Source of the DNA: a virus
DNA length: 43,327 nt
Direction: 5' to 3' (one strand)
Virus record (IMG/VR): IMGVR_UViG_3300033153_002016
Coordinates: 1-43,327 of that record
Shown here: one piece after another, positions 6,701 to 31,497 of the stretch
How the letters are laid out: every line of letters begins with the position of its first letter
How positions within the stretch are numbered: position 1 is the first letter of the stretch
The notes under the pieces: generated by a model
What the model saw: only the letters and a program-made list of their open reading frames with translations
What the model was told of the DNA's origin: nothing
Databases searched by the model: none
Translations under genes and position numbers: made by a program

Positions 6701-8691
6701 TAGCTCTTAAGTATGAAAAACAATTCGCTGAACTTAGAAGTATGGGAGAGACCTATACTAATCTAGCTACTTCTAAGGTAGGCTCTCTATCTACGCTGAA
6801 GCATGCTGATGAGGTAGTAGAGAATCCTTTCATGGATTATGTTAAAACTTCACTTGCTATTAAGAGTTACTCTGACTATCCTTTCTGGACTTCAGCTAAT
6901 AGGCTGATAGATTCTAAGCTGTCACAGATGTACGCTAGAATTACAGAGACAGTGGAGGGAGCTAAAACTTCTGATGAACTCCTTAAGGTGAATGAGACTT
7001 TACGAGAGTATGGTTATAAAGGTGCAGCTTATGATGAAGGTATGGAACTGATAGCTAATCATACAGCACCGAAAGGAGTCGTATCTAACTTCATTCAGAA
7101 AGCTAATGCGCTCCTAGCTACAGTAGTTCTTAGGCTTGACACAATCAATGCTGTGAATAACACAGTCGGCGCTAATGTTCTCCTAGGGGCTGAGCTTAAA
7201 GCTGTAATGAGAGCGATGGAGAGAGGAGATGTAGCAGCTGTAGGGGCATTAGGTGAGCTTGCATCTCTTATGAAGGTGAAAGTTCCTGGTACAGACAAGC
7301 TGATGACTTCTCCTGCTAAGCTTATAGCAGAGAGCATTAAGAAGTTCGGTAGAGAGACTCCTGAAATGGAGTTCTATAAGAAGAATGGTTTCGTAACTTC
7401 TATCTCTGACCAGTATAAGTGGACACTTGACCAGCTGACTGTAGGTGGTAAAGAAACAGCGCAAGACTTCTCTTCTAAGATAAATAAGGTACAGACTTCG
7501 TTATCTAACTTCGCTGACAAGGGTGAACGCTGGACAGGTAACCGTCTCGCTGAGGAATTCAATCGGTTCGTAGCTGCAGATGTGATGAAGCAGATTACAG
7601 ATGTTGCAGTTAATGCAGGTGTGATGGACTCTAAGACAGCTCTCTCTTATATTAATACTTTTGTGAATAGAACTCAAGGTAACTACCTAGCTTCTCAGAG
7701 ACCTATGATGTTCCAAGGGCCGATAGGACAAGCTATAGGACTGTTCCAAACCTACCAGTTCAATCTTATGCAACAACTTCTAAGACATGTAGGTGAAGGT
7801 AGAGCTAAGGACTCAGCTACTCTTCTAGGTCTCCAAGGTACTATCTATGGTATGAATGGACTACCTGCTTTCAATGCTATTAACACTCATGTGATAGGTA
7901 CAGCTTCTGGTAATGAAGAGCATAAGGATATGTATGATGCAGTGTATGGTGCCGCAGGTAAGGAAGCTGGGGACTGGATGATGTACGGTGTAGCTTCTAA
8001 TCTCCTCTATCATCCAGACTTGAAAATTAACTTATATGTGAGAGGCGATATCAACCCACGGCATGTGACTATAGTACCTACTAATCCTGCTGATGTTCCT
8101 ATCTATGGAGCTTCAGTTAAGTTCTTTAGTAATCTATTCAATACAGCTGACCAGCTTATAAAAGGAGGTGACGTATCTTCTACTCTCTTACAAGGTTTGG
8201 AACATAATGGAATATCAAGACCATTAGCTGGAATAGCCCAGACCTTGCAAGGTTTAGATAATCCTAATCACTCCTCTTATAGTACATCTAACAGAGGTAA
8301 TGTTATTGCTTCTAATGACTTGCTTTCTCTTGCTAACATGGGACGTATGCTTGGAGGGAAACCTCTTGGTGAAGCTGTTGCTGTAGATGCTGCATTTAGA
8401 TTGAGAGCGTATACTGCTAAGGATAATGAACGCAGGAAAGAACTGGGCGCATCTATTAAGACTACTATGATTGCAGGTAGAGTACCATCACAGGAGCAGA
8501 TAGATGGTTTCGCTGAGGACTATGTGAAACTAGGAGGAAAGCAGACTGAGTTTAATAAGTGGATGCTGAATCAATATAAGAACGCTAATACCTCCCAGAT
8601 TAATCAGCTACTGGATGTGAACTCATCTAAGTTTTCACAGAGTATGCAGACTTTAATGGGAGGATATGAGCTTAGAGACTTTGTTGAGTAG
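3766..8691 (+). CDS. Giant internal virion (ejection) protein, gp16-like
   Basis: At 1641 aa this is the largest gene of the genome, starting at ATG 3766 after AAGGTAA. Size and its place as last gene of the virion block match the large ejection protein of T7-like phages (gp16, about 1300 aa). Alpha-helical regions alternate with segments rich in Ala, Lys and Glu. A hydrophobic Gly/Ala stretch near residues 205-255 (from GAGMGQQVLEAAAFETAVAA) could insert into a membrane. I find no convincing lytic transglycosylase motif, unlike T7 gp16, so any wall-opening activity must sit elsewhere or be unrecognisable. The C-terminal third is a plausible DNA-translocating region by position only. Confidence 0.7.
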   Translation: MPPLFFGSEQNTDTTLTPASFGGVDEPVRSSAPSYFIAADSHSIANADKSLLEITGETIANIPKFLAASMVSGGNQLYNIVPSLGNAFGGDYELSDTAEVMQDIDDDLGRYYEEHAGSADTLGFILSSIVPGSAGIKVLNAGQKMMRTAAASGRFGENMSKAYALKASLREKYVAQAIKEITATDNAFRLMDRNLLKAMGAGMGQQVLEAAAFETAVAATMFNSPILDEQDVGDLVANIAFGGVVFGAIGGVVDATRAAFKVKKAVREADAEAMPWRHIQEAPEGATTSDRLLTYYDQIHTMPPVPKAFGAERLSYLQSSAKSKVKTLELKIRNEFTTLAGGDQVIAEQMFQAAKITPPSTVIGNYLGAKGVSRIADISKIEARNTKITAKINAGKDVPLKEVEAALNTKTTYQRNWGDDAGNITDSVIPTRIVDTLKKGDNIEVTRTRVDIVSATGKRTKVAGFKKPTAKKIDSWDVKKSSVREAEARTIWAAKQKLSIGQAIGQGDIPLLEQAYKQFDASYEYRLVDGGVRKFQTPEDLLGFIQQSKLLAATDLAEKSLKKGAKKGEPALSQEEIATMLNVRPKYLSGEVSTNPADDLFAMDTYAAEYTQRLVTAGARKKEAGDIDIWNTPQHTKVLTDTSPVKDLDGMALEGMAQIKQRQHEYLSNTSRASAAVLGEDYEKLIDILDIDILKANRLGAGSGFAAAASANYGTLASKMEFIGNATSGMIRDAKGKVRETFEAPLYKLTQNTDAAIEWSTINATLRSIPENYALNATGDALIPAVIKRYENALAAGKSPKTPELKVKDAPLVIPLKNPEVRELARMHIEVNGANRSKQQVMKTSQGMEHVVDTDTFYPIPVDPKDFPYFATVTDSSITGTGHTKTIYAASERELGQMIKKIENEPGLTIRTKKDAEDYWKSIGQFDYDKTLHENYLDIAMHRKGVSSPYFVATDPQKIANEFLTWHSQRATGVVREAVALKYEKQFAELRSMGETYTNLATSKVGSLSTLKHADEVVENPFMDYVKTSLAIKSYSDYPFWTSANRLIDSKLSQMYARITETVEGAKTSDELLKVNETLREYGYKGAAYDEGMELIANHTAPKGVVSNFIQKANALLATVVLRLDTINAVNNTVGANVLLGAELKAVMRAMERGDVAAVGALGELASLMKVKVPGTDKLMTSPAKLIAESIKKFGRETPEMEFYKKNGFVTSISDQYKWTLDQLTVGGKETAQDFSSKINKVQTSLSNFADKGERWTGNRLAEEFNRFVAADVMKQITDVAVNAGVMDSKTALSYINTFVNRTQGNYLASQRPMMFQGPIGQAIGLFQTYQFNLMQQLLRHVGEGRAKDSATLLGLQGTIYGMNGLPAFNAINTHVIGTASGNEEHKDMYDAVYGAAGKEAGDWMMYGVASNLLYHPDLKINLYVRGDINPRHVTIVPTNPADVPIYGASVKFFSNLFNTADQLIKGGDVSSTLLQGLEHNGISRPLAGIAQTLQGLDNPNHSSYSTSNRGNVIASNDLLSLANMGRMLGGKPLGEAVAVDAAFRLRAYTAKDNERRKELGASIKTTMIAGRVPSQEQIDGFAEDYVKLGGKQTEFNKWMLNQYKNANTSQINQLLDVNSSKFSQSMQTLMGGYELRDFVE

Positions 8692-24628: not shown

Positions 24629-25369
24629 TCAGAGTGACATTAACAATGTATCAGGTGTGTCATTCATCATAGAATCCAGTCTACTTTTCAGCTTCACACC
24701 TATAAAGCTCTGAGATGCAGACTCAGAGGTACATAGTGCCTGCAATAACATCTGAGCTTCCTCTTTCTTATAATAAGTCTTTCCACCTGCCATAGATGAA
24801 TACTTATTCCTATAAGCAGTAAGAACCGTATCCAGTTTCATTATCTCTTCTTCTGTAGGCTCTTCCAGTGAGATACCAGTTTTATTAGCTAATGCAATCA
24901 TAAGAGCATCTTGTAACTCAGCTTTAAACCAATCTTCAATCTTTTCCTTATTCAATCGTTGAGAGACTGTGGACGCTTCGAGAGCATCAACTATTTTAGA
25001 CAGATTCAAGTCAGCTTCCTGCACAGTGGATGCACCTGCTATATGATAAGACTTTATAAGCTTATCTTCCTCAGCTTGTAAGTATCCGACTATATAAGGT
25101 GCGAGAGCTTGAATGTTATCCTGTATTAGTTGCTTAGTTATGTGATCATTTACTCTGATGTAAGAATTATCAGCTACTTTTACCTTAGTCTTGGGGTGAG
25201 CTTTATAGAGTAACTTCACATTTCTATAGCCTTTAAGAACTGGCACTGGTAGTGCTGAATCATACGGGCGAAAGGTATTAGTATCATTAGCTTGAAGGGT
25301 GACACCTAGGTTAAGAGGCGTAGTCATATTATCTGCGGTAGTGTTCACATTATTAAGTAAAGTATTCAT
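24629..25369 (-). CDS. Single-gene early unit, unknown function
   Basis: The 246-aa protein is not recognised. It has an Asn/Thr-rich start, a middle section with basic and aromatic residues (LKGYRNVKLLYKAHPKTKVKV), and then mostly helix, including NLSKIVDALEASTVSQRLNKE and KIEDWFKAELQDALMIALAN. No catalytic motif is seen. It lies at the divergence point with its own upstream region and its own terminator, so it is transcribed apart from everything else. It could be an immediate-early regulator or takeover protein. A weak extended -10 (TGTGATAGT on the minus strand near 25444-25452) may be its promoter. Confidence 0.6.
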   Translation of the reverse strand: MNTLLNNVNTTADNMTTPLNLGVTLQANDTNTFRPYDSALPVPVLKGYRNVKLLYKAHPKTKVKVADNSYIRVNDHITKQLIQDNIQALAPYIVGYLQAEEDKLIKSYHIAGASTVQEADLNLSKIVDALEASTVSQRLNKEKIEDWFKAELQDALMIALANKTGISLEEPTEEEIMKLDTVLTAYRNKYSSMAGGKTYYKKEEAQMLLQALCTSESASQSFIGVKLKSRLDSMMNDTPDTLLMSL

Positions 25370-28182: not shown

Positions 28183-30216
28183 ATGGCAGCAGCTACATCA
28201 GTACCATTAACTAAGCGCTCACAAGAATCCTTTATAGTTTACTATAAGCAAGCTATGGACTTACAGACGCAAGCTCGCAGTTCTCTTCGCTCTCGTATGG
28301 AGGAGTTAGATAAGAACTATCAGCGAGAGTTAGATGCTAAAGAGGAGCATGTAAGAGCTAAGGCAGCTAATAAAGCAGGCGACACTGATAGATTTCAAAA
28401 TATAACTGTACCTGTAATCATGCCTCAGGTAGAGTCAGCTGCCACCTATCAGGCTTCAGTCTTCCTTACAGGTTATCCTCTTTTCGGTGTGGTTGCGTCA
28501 CCTCAGTTTATAGATGAAGCTGTTCAGATGGAGACAGTTATAGATGAGCAGTCTGTAAGAGGGGGCTGGACACGAGACTTGCTAATGCATTTCAGAGATG
28601 GATTTAAGTATAACTTCGCTCCACTTGAAGTCAGCTGGCTCCAAGAGGTAACTTCCACCGTAGAAACTGACCTTACTAAAAATCTGACAGAAGGTATACC
28701 TAAGGAAGTTCTGTGGGCAGGTAATAATGTCAAGCGTTTAGACCCTTATAACACTTTTGTAGACCCTAGAGTTGACCCTACAGCTGTACATGCAGACGGT
28801 GAGTTCGCAGGTTACACTGAATTCATGACACGGATTAAGCTTAAAGCTTTCATAGCTTCTCTACCTGACCAGATTATAGCTAACATACAGCCTGCATTTG
28901 CTTCTGGGTTAGGTTCCTCCAGTGGAGGTGGAGTATCTTCAGAAGATTCTAGAGGCTATTACACTCCTCAGATTAATCCAGATGTTAACCCAGAAGACAA
29001 TAAGGATGGAACTAACTGGCTAGCTTGGGCAGGTATGTCCACTACCAGAAACACCAATATGGATTATAAGGATACATATGAAGTTACTACCTTATACTGT
29101 AGAGTACTTCCAGCGGAATTCTCCCTTAAGGTTCCTAATCGTAATATACCACAGGTCTATAAGCTTATCATAGTGAATCATGAGCATATAGTATACTGTG
29201 AGAGACAGACTAATGTGCATAACTCTATTCCTATCTTAATAGGACAGCCATTAGAAGACGGTCTAGGTTATCAGACTAAGTCTCTAGCTAAGAATGCGCA
29301 ACCTTTTCAAGAGGTGACTTCTGCGTATATGAATTCTATCATACACTCGCGCCGGAGAGCTATCTCAGATAGAGTTCTGTATGACCCTTCTCGTATATCT
29401 TCAGCTCACATTAACTCTGCGAATCCTTCAGCTAAGATACCAGTTCGGCCCGCAGCGTTTGGTAAGAATATAGCGGAGTCTGTATATCAGTTCCCTTACA
29501 GAGAAGACCAAGCGGCAGCTTCCATGCAGCAGATACAAGTCTTACTCGGTCTAGCTAATAACCTCTCAGGTCAGAATCAGGCGTCTCAGGGGCAGTTTGT
29601 TAAAGGTAATAAGACTCTTCATGAGTTTGAATCAGTGATGCAGAACGCTAACGGTAGAGACCAGATGGCAGCTATGCTACTAGAAGTACAGATATTCACT
29701 CCGCTGAAGCATATACTTAAGCTTAATATCTTACAGTATCAGGGAGGTACTTCTATCTATAATAGAGATAAGGAGATAGCTGTAGAGATTGACCCTATTG
29801 CTCTGAGAAAAGCTGTTATAGAATTTAAAGTGTCTGATGGACTTATACCTTCCTCTAAGCTTATCAATGGAGATACCCTAGCGACAGCGATACAAGTCAT
29901 AGGTTCATCTCCTGCTATCTCTGCAGGTTACAATATAGCTCCTATGTTCTCCTACCTGATGAAAACTCAGGGAGCTAAACTGACATCCTTCGAGAAGTCT
30001 CCTGAGCAGATGGCGTATGAACAAGCTGTAGGAGCATGGCAGCAGGCAGTAGCTGGAGCGTTAGAGAAGGGAGAAGTTGACCCTAAGAGCTTACCTTCAC
30101 AGCCTTTACCTGAACAGTATGGTTATACACCTGGCGGAGATAAGCAAGTACCCCGCGGACAGGAGGGAGCAGGAACAGCACAGAAGCCTACAGCGCCAGC
30201 GACACCTGCACGGTAG
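28183..30216 (+). CDS. Portal protein
   Basis: The 677-aa protein follows the large terminase with GAGGAAC before ATG 28183. Size, position and layout match podovirus portals: an N-terminal helical region (from SQESFIVYYKQAMDLQTQ), a mixed centre with RLDPYNTFVDPRVDP, typical of portals of this group, HSRRRAISDRVLYDP, and a C-terminal helical region ending in a Pro/Gln/Gly-rich tail. It forms the dodecameric channel for DNA. A non-coding, probably structured stretch follows at 30217-30443. Confidence 0.85.
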   Translation: MAAATSVPLTKRSQESFIVYYKQAMDLQTQARSSLRSRMEELDKNYQRELDAKEEHVRAKAANKAGDTDRFQNITVPVIMPQVESAATYQASVFLTGYPLFGVVASPQFIDEAVQMETVIDEQSVRGGWTRDLLMHFRDGFKYNFAPLEVSWLQEVTSTVETDLTKNLTEGIPKEVLWAGNNVKRLDPYNTFVDPRVDPTAVHADGEFAGYTEFMTRIKLKAFIASLPDQIIANIQPAFASGLGSSSGGGVSSEDSRGYYTPQINPDVNPEDNKDGTNWLAWAGMSTTRNTNMDYKDTYEVTTLYCRVLPAEFSLKVPNRNIPQVYKLIIVNHEHIVYCERQTNVHNSIPILIGQPLEDGLGYQTKSLAKNAQPFQEVTSAYMNSIIHSRRRAISDRVLYDPSRISSAHINSANPSAKIPVRPAAFGKNIAESVYQFPYREDQAAASMQQIQVLLGLANNLSGQNQASQGQFVKGNKTLHEFESVMQNANGRDQMAAMLLEVQIFTPLKHILKLNILQYQGGTSIYNRDKEIAVEIDPIALRKAVIEFKVSDGLIPSSKLINGDTLATAIQVIGSSPAISAGYNIAPMFSYLMKTQGAKLTSFEKSPEQMAYEQAVGAWQQAVAGALEKGEVDPKSLPSQPLPEQYGYTPGGDKQVPRGQEGAGTAQKPTAPATPAR

Positions 30217-30443
30217 AATCATATCAGCGGGCATTGACACCTAGGAAGCTCGTAGTAGTTGACCGCGTGAACCGCTAACCACGAAACAGGAGTGATAGTG
30301 TCATAGGTTTTTCGTCGATTCCTAGCGAGGCACGAGTGGATGAGACTAAAAGACTTGACACGTCAACGACGCGTGGTAAGCTGTGAAGCGGTTAATACGA
30401 AGAGCTGACGGAATTATTTACATCTATATAAGAGAATCATACA
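30217..30443 (+). ncRNA. Candidate structured RNA between portal and next gene
   Basis: This 227-base gap is long for a block in which genes otherwise nearly touch. GC is 95 of 190 over 30221-30410, higher than its surroundings. No frame codes for more than about 22 residues. Perfect plus-strand pairings include 30235-30240 with 30298-30303, 30241-30247 with 30319-30325, 30270-30276 with 30387-30393, 30258-30263 with 30362-30367, and an 8-of-9 hairpin 30354-30362 with 30372-30380. 30224-30228 can close with 30404-30408. Several cross each other, so pseudoknots or alternative folds are implied. I could not match it to tmRNA, RNase P, group I introns or hammerhead ribozymes. Confidence 0.5.
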
Positions 30444-30728
30444 ATGGCAACTATTATACCTAATGCATTTACATCCTATCAACTAACAGAAGAGGAGCAA
30501 CTCCAAGGACAGATACTAACACTACAACAAACACAAGTACTACAAAATGAAAGAGCTAGATTAGCAGAAGAGAAATTACTTCTAGCTATCGACCCTAATG
30601 ATACCTTAGCATCAGCTCAAGAGGAAGCCTATAAGATAGGGCAACTTGAGCTTATAGCTTGGATATTAGAGTGCTCAGATGCAGCTAATGTTGCATTAAA
30701 TAACCCAGAAATTAACACCGAAATCTAA
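30444..30728 (+). CDS. Small virion-block protein
   Basis: The 94-aa protein is Gln/Leu/Glu-rich and almost entirely helical (QGQILTLQQTQVLQNERARL), predicting a coiled coil. It starts at ATG 30444 behind AGAGAA and lies just before the scaffold. It is not recognised by function. A head-assembly helper or minor virion protein fits its place. Confidence 0.5.
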   Translation: MATIIPNAFTSYQLTEEEQLQGQILTLQQTQVLQNERARLAEEKLLLAIDPNDTLASAQEEAYKIGQLELIAWILECSDAANVALNNPEINTEI

Positions 30729-30741
30729 GAGGATTTACACA

Positions 30742-31497
30742 ATGTCTATGTTTAACTTATTTGGCTCTAATCCAGCGTCAGCGCCAGCAACTACACCAGC
30801 AACTCCTGTAGCAGCAGCTCCAGCACAGAATCCTACAGCGGAGCCAGGTAATATGCCTGCTGCTGGAGACCCTAATGCACAAGCTCCTACTGGAGATACA
30901 CCAGCTCCTGCAGCTACACCTGTAAAAGATGATAATTCCCCTCTTGCTGAGTTTACAGACTTATGGGATACTGTACCTAATAAAGCAGAAGGAGACACTC
31001 CTCCAGCGCAACTAGACCCAACTAAGTTAAAAGAAGTAATAGCTAAGGCAGATTTTTCTGCTGTTATTACTCCTGAGAACTTAGCTGCAATCACTGCTGG
31101 TGGAGACGATGCAACCAAGGCTTTCTCTTCTTCTATGAATCAAGTAGCTCAGCAAGTAATGAATCAATCACTTCTCGCCTCTAATAAAATGATAGAGCAA
31201 GCAGTAGATAAAGTTAATTCAGCTTGGGAATCTAAGCTACCTCAGTTACTTAAAAAACAGAGCCTTAATGAAAGCTTAGTAAGTTCAGACCCCTTATTTA
31301 AAAATCCTGCCATTAAACCTATTATGGAAGCAACGCAACAGCAATTAGCTTCTAAATACCCTAACGCTACTGTAGCAGAACTAGCCACAATGACTCAAGA
31401 TTATATTAAAGCTATGGGAGAAGCTTTTGCTCCTAAGCCAGCTGCTAAAGAAGGCGGCACCACTCCTGAGACTGACTGGGATATGTTTATGCAATAA
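30742..31497 (+). CDS. Scaffolding protein
   Basis: The 251-aa protein has the typical scaffold make-up. The first 65 residues are Ala/Pro/Thr-rich and disordered, followed by an acidic, helical region (NQVAQQVMNQSLLASNKMIE, LKKQSLNESLVSSDPLFKNP) and a short C-terminus (DWDMFMQ) that could contact the capsid protein. It lies between the portal and the major capsid protein. It would guide prohead assembly and leave before DNA filling. Identification is by composition and order. Confidence 0.75.
   Translation: MSMFNLFGSNPASAPATTPATPVAAAPAQNPTAEPGNMPAAGDPNAQAPTGDTPAPAATPVKDDNSPLAEFTDLWDTVPNKAEGDTPPAQLDPTKLKEVIAKADFSAVITPENLAAITAGGDDATKAFSSSMNQVAQQVMNQSLLASNKMIEQAVDKVNSAWESKLPQLLKKQSLNESLVSSDPLFKNPAIKPIMEATQQQLASKYPNATVAELATMTQDYIKAMGEAFAPKPAAKEGGTTPETDWDMFMQ

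Follow-up and report, generated by a model that had tools for sequence, protein, structure and literature searches.

The phi29 packaging RNA (pRNA) is 174 nt long, and 6S RNA forms a single long imperfect hairpin of ~180 nt. Protein-coding 'morons' are optional units whose gain or loss at gene junctions distinguishes phages that are similar in other respects. A three-way junction forms the core of the pRNA, which is essential (PMC5340915). In staphylococcal phages, the CBASS-activating bacteriophage RNA (cabRNA) is a structured RNA from the terS/terL packaging-gene region; it is ~400 nt long and overlaps coding sequence, cabRNAs of different phages have no sequence homology, and through them a host defence enzyme can sense RNAs from phage terminase genes (PMC10686824).

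The virus record analysed here (43,327 bases in total, hereafter the window) contains a predicted rod-shaped RNA next to its portal gene that can be compared with each of these systems. Like 6S RNA, the rod is a single long imperfect hairpin; it differs in having no Rfam 6S match and no obvious large central bubble, and a conserved tip like that of the rod is, to our knowledge, not a feature of 6S RNA. With the pRNA it has in common that it is a structured, phage-encoded RNA of similar length, the association with the portal being positional here, but it is unbranched and missing in sister phages. As with cabRNA, a structured RNA lies in the packaging-gene region of a phage; unlike cabRNA, the rod RNA is intergenic, and its sequence and fold are conserved across divergent phages. 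By analogy, cabRNA is a precedent for action in trans, not evidence that the rod RNA acts in this way. The likeness to morons lies in the gain and loss of an optional unit, whereas here the cargo is RNA and has no reading frame.

A preliminary description had drawn attention to a 227-base non-coding gap, and its coordinates were exact (Table 1). Stop codons occur in all six frames, ATG-started ORFs inside the gap do not exceed 22 aa, and no conserved reading frame was detected when one was looked for. The gap had been placed between portal and scaffold genes, which is right for the portal side, but the gene directly 3' of the gap is a 94-aa ORF and the presumed scaffold ORF (251 aa) begins at 30742. 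The GC content, said to be higher than in the surroundings, is indeed elevated in the rod core (0.50, window mean 0.406); for the whole gap (0.454) the statement holds against the downstream kb (0.408) and not against the upstream kb (0.453). Promoter-like and terminator-like sites around the gap were close to chance level.

Table 1. Features of the portal-adjacent junction in the window; for helices, the second strand is given after 'with'.
Feature	Position	Strand	Basis
Portal protein ORF, 677 aa, upstream neighbour	28183..30216	+	phrog_15554 portal protein, E=3.2e-82
Non-coding gap carrying the RNA element, between portal ORF and 94-aa ORF	30217..30443	+	ORF list, six-frame stops
Rod-shaped structured RNA, predicted extent ~160 nt	30247..30406	+	R1 30249-30394, R2 30249-30410, fold
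Helix UUGACCGC/GCGGUUAA	30259..30266 with 30388-30395	+	Fold; family helix 1, double changes in 4/5 pairs
Helix ACCACG/CGUGGU	30278..30283 with 30372-30377	+	Fold; family helix 3, double changes in 4/4 pairs
Helix GUGUCA/UGACAC	30298..30303 with 30356-30361	+	Fold; family helix 5, double changes in 9/11 pairs
Helix GGUUUUU/AAAGACU	30306..30312 with 30349-30355	+	Fold; family helix 6, double changes in 3/3 pairs
Tip UCCUAGCGAGGCACGAGUGGA	30320..30340	+	Sequence comparison, pattern scan
Conserved UAAGCU motif, 3' side of rod	30377..30382	+	Near-invariant in MAFFT and CM alignments
A+T-rich leader, from rod to ATG of 94-aa ORF	30407..30443	+	Sequence, GC 0.27
94-aa ORF, downstream neighbour, without known family	30444..30728	+	ORF list, family search

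In the predicted fold the rod is closed by an outer helix, AGCUC/GAGCU (30247-30251 with 30402-30406); measured likewise from their outer helix, other members of the family are ~150-220 nt long. The GUGUCA/UGACAC helix is the window's version of the conserved GUCA/UUGAC region of the family, GGUUUUU/AAAGACU is the family GUUU/AAAC helix, and the tip has a longer inner loop than the conserved family form CUAGCGAAGCGG. On the + strand the gap folded with an MFE of -63.3 kcal/mol (z = -2.18; 6 of 200 shuffles were as low) and its inner 156 nt reached z = -3.17, while the - strand of the gap gave z = -0.27. The helices of the rod turned out to be real and covarying. The crossing of some pairings, seen in the preliminary description, received no support: the consensus is a single, fully nested rod, with 0 branch points in the covariance model R1 and none in the model R2.

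Rfam 15 contained no match to the window at gathering score, relaxed searches with the window region, L131, L003 and L163 returned sub-threshold chance matches alone, and six related loci gave nothing up to E=5. ARAGORN found nothing in the gap. When the gap and the packaging block were compared with 50,697 phage records by blastn no match was obtained, and the L131 element produced just 25-bp chance matches to phages. An earlier description of the rod RNA was not found in the open-licence literature. The view that this is a new structured RNA of unplaced class was thus upheld by the Rfam check that had been proposed for it and by covariation in homologues far above controls.

About 22 distinct viral records proved to contain homologous inserts; contigs 3300028610_000085 and 3300031885_000079 are among the carriers. 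Among portal relatives (50-68% identity) taken from IMG/VR, most had no gap behind the portal; L008 and L015 had a gap of similar size after the portal and L006 one behind the 94-aa gene, and the rod tip CUAGCG...AGYGG, the GUCA/UUGAC stem and UAAGCU were recognised by eye in all three. A tip-motif scan of viral contigs located the same element upstream of the portal in L014 and L124. Intergenic-gap listing and scans added further members upstream of the portal (L003, L007, L013, L149, L152, L162, L163, L166, L183, L131, L130) and upstream of the 94-aa gene (L112 and L115, together with L100, which was recognised by eye and matched by neither model). Member sequences are mostly only 40-60% identical. 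Other tip-motif matches (L119, L121, L123, L126-L128, L132, L134-L138, L140, L142, L143) were rejected as chance, lying mostly within coding sequence; L118 was not accepted as a member, its match being limited to the 22-nt tip, and each of seven matches from a genome-contig scan was judged to be chance.

For the covariance model R1, 11 sequences were used in training and the window was held out; in a search space of 808 kb the model matched the window with E=2.2e-4. Other R1 matches outside the training set were L175 (3.8e-7), L008 (7.1e-7), L013 (2.1e-6) and L112 (0.0033); these loci had already been noticed by eye or in the gap listing, so that the matches are a test of the model and not a blind discovery. 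The model R2, built from 18 sequences including the window, matched the window again and, outside its training set, L152 (1.1e-4) and L115 (4.7e-4). A scan that used the portal of a more distant clade led to previously unseen R2 matches in L299/L284, L286 and L281/L282 (1.6e-4 to 2.1e-3). Apart from the 22-nt tip of L118 (E = 1.1), no other R2 matches were present up to E = 10 in the sets searched.

In the 22-member alignment A8, double compensatory changes were observed in 30 of 37 pairs. The covariation score was 0.490 compared with 0.169 after shuffling, paired cells amounted to 85.9% compared with 32-44% when the structure was slid along the alignment, and in 500 shuffles none of five measures was attained once. 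Alignments fitted to a covariance model lean towards the structure, and for this reason the structure-blind MAFFT alignment A3 matters: scored against a structure predicted from A3 itself, it showed double changes in 26 of 37 pairs and a covariation score of 0.409 (0.166 shuffled). The window, although held out of R1, formed 30 of the 35 scored pairs in the CM alignment, and in 11 of these both bases differ from those of L131. Altogether, comparison of the homologues strongly supports that the gap holds a genuine conserved structured RNA.

Two indirect measures support that the RNA is read from the late-gene strand. Over 21 members the fold z averaged -3.32 for the + strand and -2.34 for the - strand, and G-U cells outnumbered A-C cells (47 vs 22, p = 0.0035), an excess that serves as supporting evidence only, since cells are non-independent and the model prefers G-U. 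Every member is oriented in the late-gene sense. The proximity of the terminase genes would fit a site acting at the DNA level (cos, pac or a cruciform) instead of an RNA. Such a site is the least probable of the explanations considered here, given the G-U over A-C excess, the strand-asymmetric folding and the conserved tip and loops; sister phages without the element must package their DNA as well.

All elements adjoin the portal, early in the late operon, at the terminase-portal junction, at the portal/94-aa junction as in the window, or at the next one. With R1, 13 of 38 whole records were matched, including the tip-only match in the record of L118, and one matched record had an extra weak opposite-strand match within the same element. 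Among 48 records searched with R2, mostly without a first-round match, the copy of L115 alone was found. A second element was not detected in any genome, either in the 38 whole records with R1 or in the 48 with R2. Many records are fragments, so absence of the element is certain just for the stretches read.

The gene downstream of the rod is not constant: it may be the portal gene, an endolysin-type ORF, the 94-aa ORF or the next ORF downstream. In most members ~5-80 nt separate the end of the rod from a start codon, with an A+T-rich leader in between, and the sense is always that of the operon, as would suit an RNA acting in cis within the late mRNA, for example as an RNase III-type processing site, a 5' stabiliser or a translation insulator tuning the next gene. 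All copies fall within a short region close to where the late operon begins, which could equally mean a local cis role. Action of this kind within the late transcript is the chief alternative to the cargo reading set out below, though we regard it as rather unlikely: the gene that follows the rod varies from phage to phage, relatives (a sister phage among them) have the same genes with no rod in front of them, and the conserved tip and UAAGCU would be more than a simple processing hairpin needs.

On the portal tree (in which row L190 is mistranslated and unreliable) the element is scattered, at least four location changes are needed, and clustering is no greater than with shuffled labels. L159 and L183 are sister rows, with end branches of 0.061 and 0.023. 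The terminase-portal junction is short or empty in L159 and holds a small ORF plus the rod in L183; no copy was found anywhere in the L159 record (11,985 b, partial). Similarly, the rod is missing from the portal/94-aa junction of L283/L285 and present there in L281 and L299. Both comparisons show presence and absence of the moron type at a junction of otherwise matching phages. The preliminary description had listed three outcomes that would speak against a structured RNA. Two of them, lack of covariation and a conserved reading frame, did not occur. The third, absence of the gap from close relatives, holds in part: many relatives do not have the gap, but homologous RNAs occur at other portal-adjacent junctions.

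Scattered presence, changing location, and empty as well as filled sites could also reflect a selfish or mobile RNA or DNA element that spreads from junction to junction without benefit, the rod perhaps being needed for its movement. In the window, a 9-bp direct repeat, AGAATCATA, is present at both gap edges (30215-30223 and ~30432-30440; p=0.02). However, a general target-site repeat (TSD) of the insertion-sequence kind was not found in 17 other members, the long flanking repeat being confined to the window. There is at most one element per genome, orientation and zone are constant, and no linked protein gene accompanies it, which makes such an element improbable. No strict protein partner emerged when 6 near-full-length genomes with the element were compared with 12 without it. 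A 246-aa ORF without confident family match (window 24629-25369, - strand) occurs in 8 of 8 element-bearing records and in 5 of 12 without the element.

Because the element always adjoins the portal gene and is about the size of phi29 pRNA, an RNA of the pRNA type that binds the portal or the motor was also considered. The unbranched rod does not contain the three-way junction of the pRNA, and the essentiality of the pRNA (PMC5340915) has no counterpart here, L159, a partial record, being without a copy. Sister phages that have almost the same portal lack the element, and no copy was found in the packaging region, including this junction, of six isolated relatives: Ph_15 (PaP2/119X type), Tiera, EBPR podovirus 3, Aeromonas P5, Vibrio VS-ABTNL-3 and Microcystis Mel-JY34. 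The empty junction in the sister phage, together with optional ORFs or a different insert at the same junctions, makes an obligatory packaging RNA unlikely, and we consider a pRNA-type function very improbable. The absence in relatives and the shifting junctions argue against obligatory roles in packaging or in the timing of head genes, both raised in the preliminary description. For the ribozyme-like processing role that it also raised, the evidence points neither way.

Small unrelated ORFs were seen at the terminase-portal or portal-scaffold junctions of L002, L151, L003, L012, L183, L024 and L031, resembling cargo slots; those of L151 and L002 lie at the terminase-portal junction. An endolysin-like peptidase ORF was recognised by eye in such junctions of L003 and L014, and in phages of the PaP2 type a putative kinase gene follows the portal. 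A second, different structured insert occupies the portal/94-aa junction in L025 (4996-5252; also in L026 and L028) and L287 (4508-4770). The L025 and L287 sequences differ, with the tip CGCAG..ATCGCC.TAAGGCGAG..CCG and other blocks in common; the fold z of the L025 insert is -4.4, and R2 matches neither. L078 has a structured non-coding gap (2560-2760, z = -3.1) without R2 match, and L155 a near-perfect intergenic hairpin of ~20 bp, CCTAAAAATCC...GGATTTTTAGG (approximately 7890-7945), in a stretch with z = -4.6.

An RNA that is kept by selection and yet dispensable, that occurs in junctions with optional ORFs and whose downstream gene varies is best understood as optional, probably trans-acting cargo. 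We therefore propose a new family of non-coding RNAs, carried as optional cargo at late-operon junctions and with a putative trans action on the host, and give this reading a probability of about 0.5. The action on the host is probable in view of the dispensability and the position of the RNA, the two observations from which it is inferred. A more specific form of the proposal is put forward with somewhat greater caution, namely that these are exchangeable 'RNA morons', conserved in fold, gained and lost at packaging-gene junctions, and acting in trans on host defence or the host RNA machinery. The rod would be transcribed together with the head genes and would then persist as a stable or processed RNA, whose conserved tip and internal loops may act in trans on a host factor belonging to host defence or the host RNA machinery. 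As with protein-coding morons, the benefit might arise in some hosts only.

What is new is the RNA family, phage non-coding RNA as a broad kind being already known. So far, the rod RNA family has been found only in uncultivated viral records, the examined isolated relatives of the lineage having no copy. That phages matching in other respects either have or lack it beside the portal offers a clean test of the role of an optional phage RNA. The family further suggests that the cargo slots of compact late operons may hold RNAs as well, which gene-based annotation misses.
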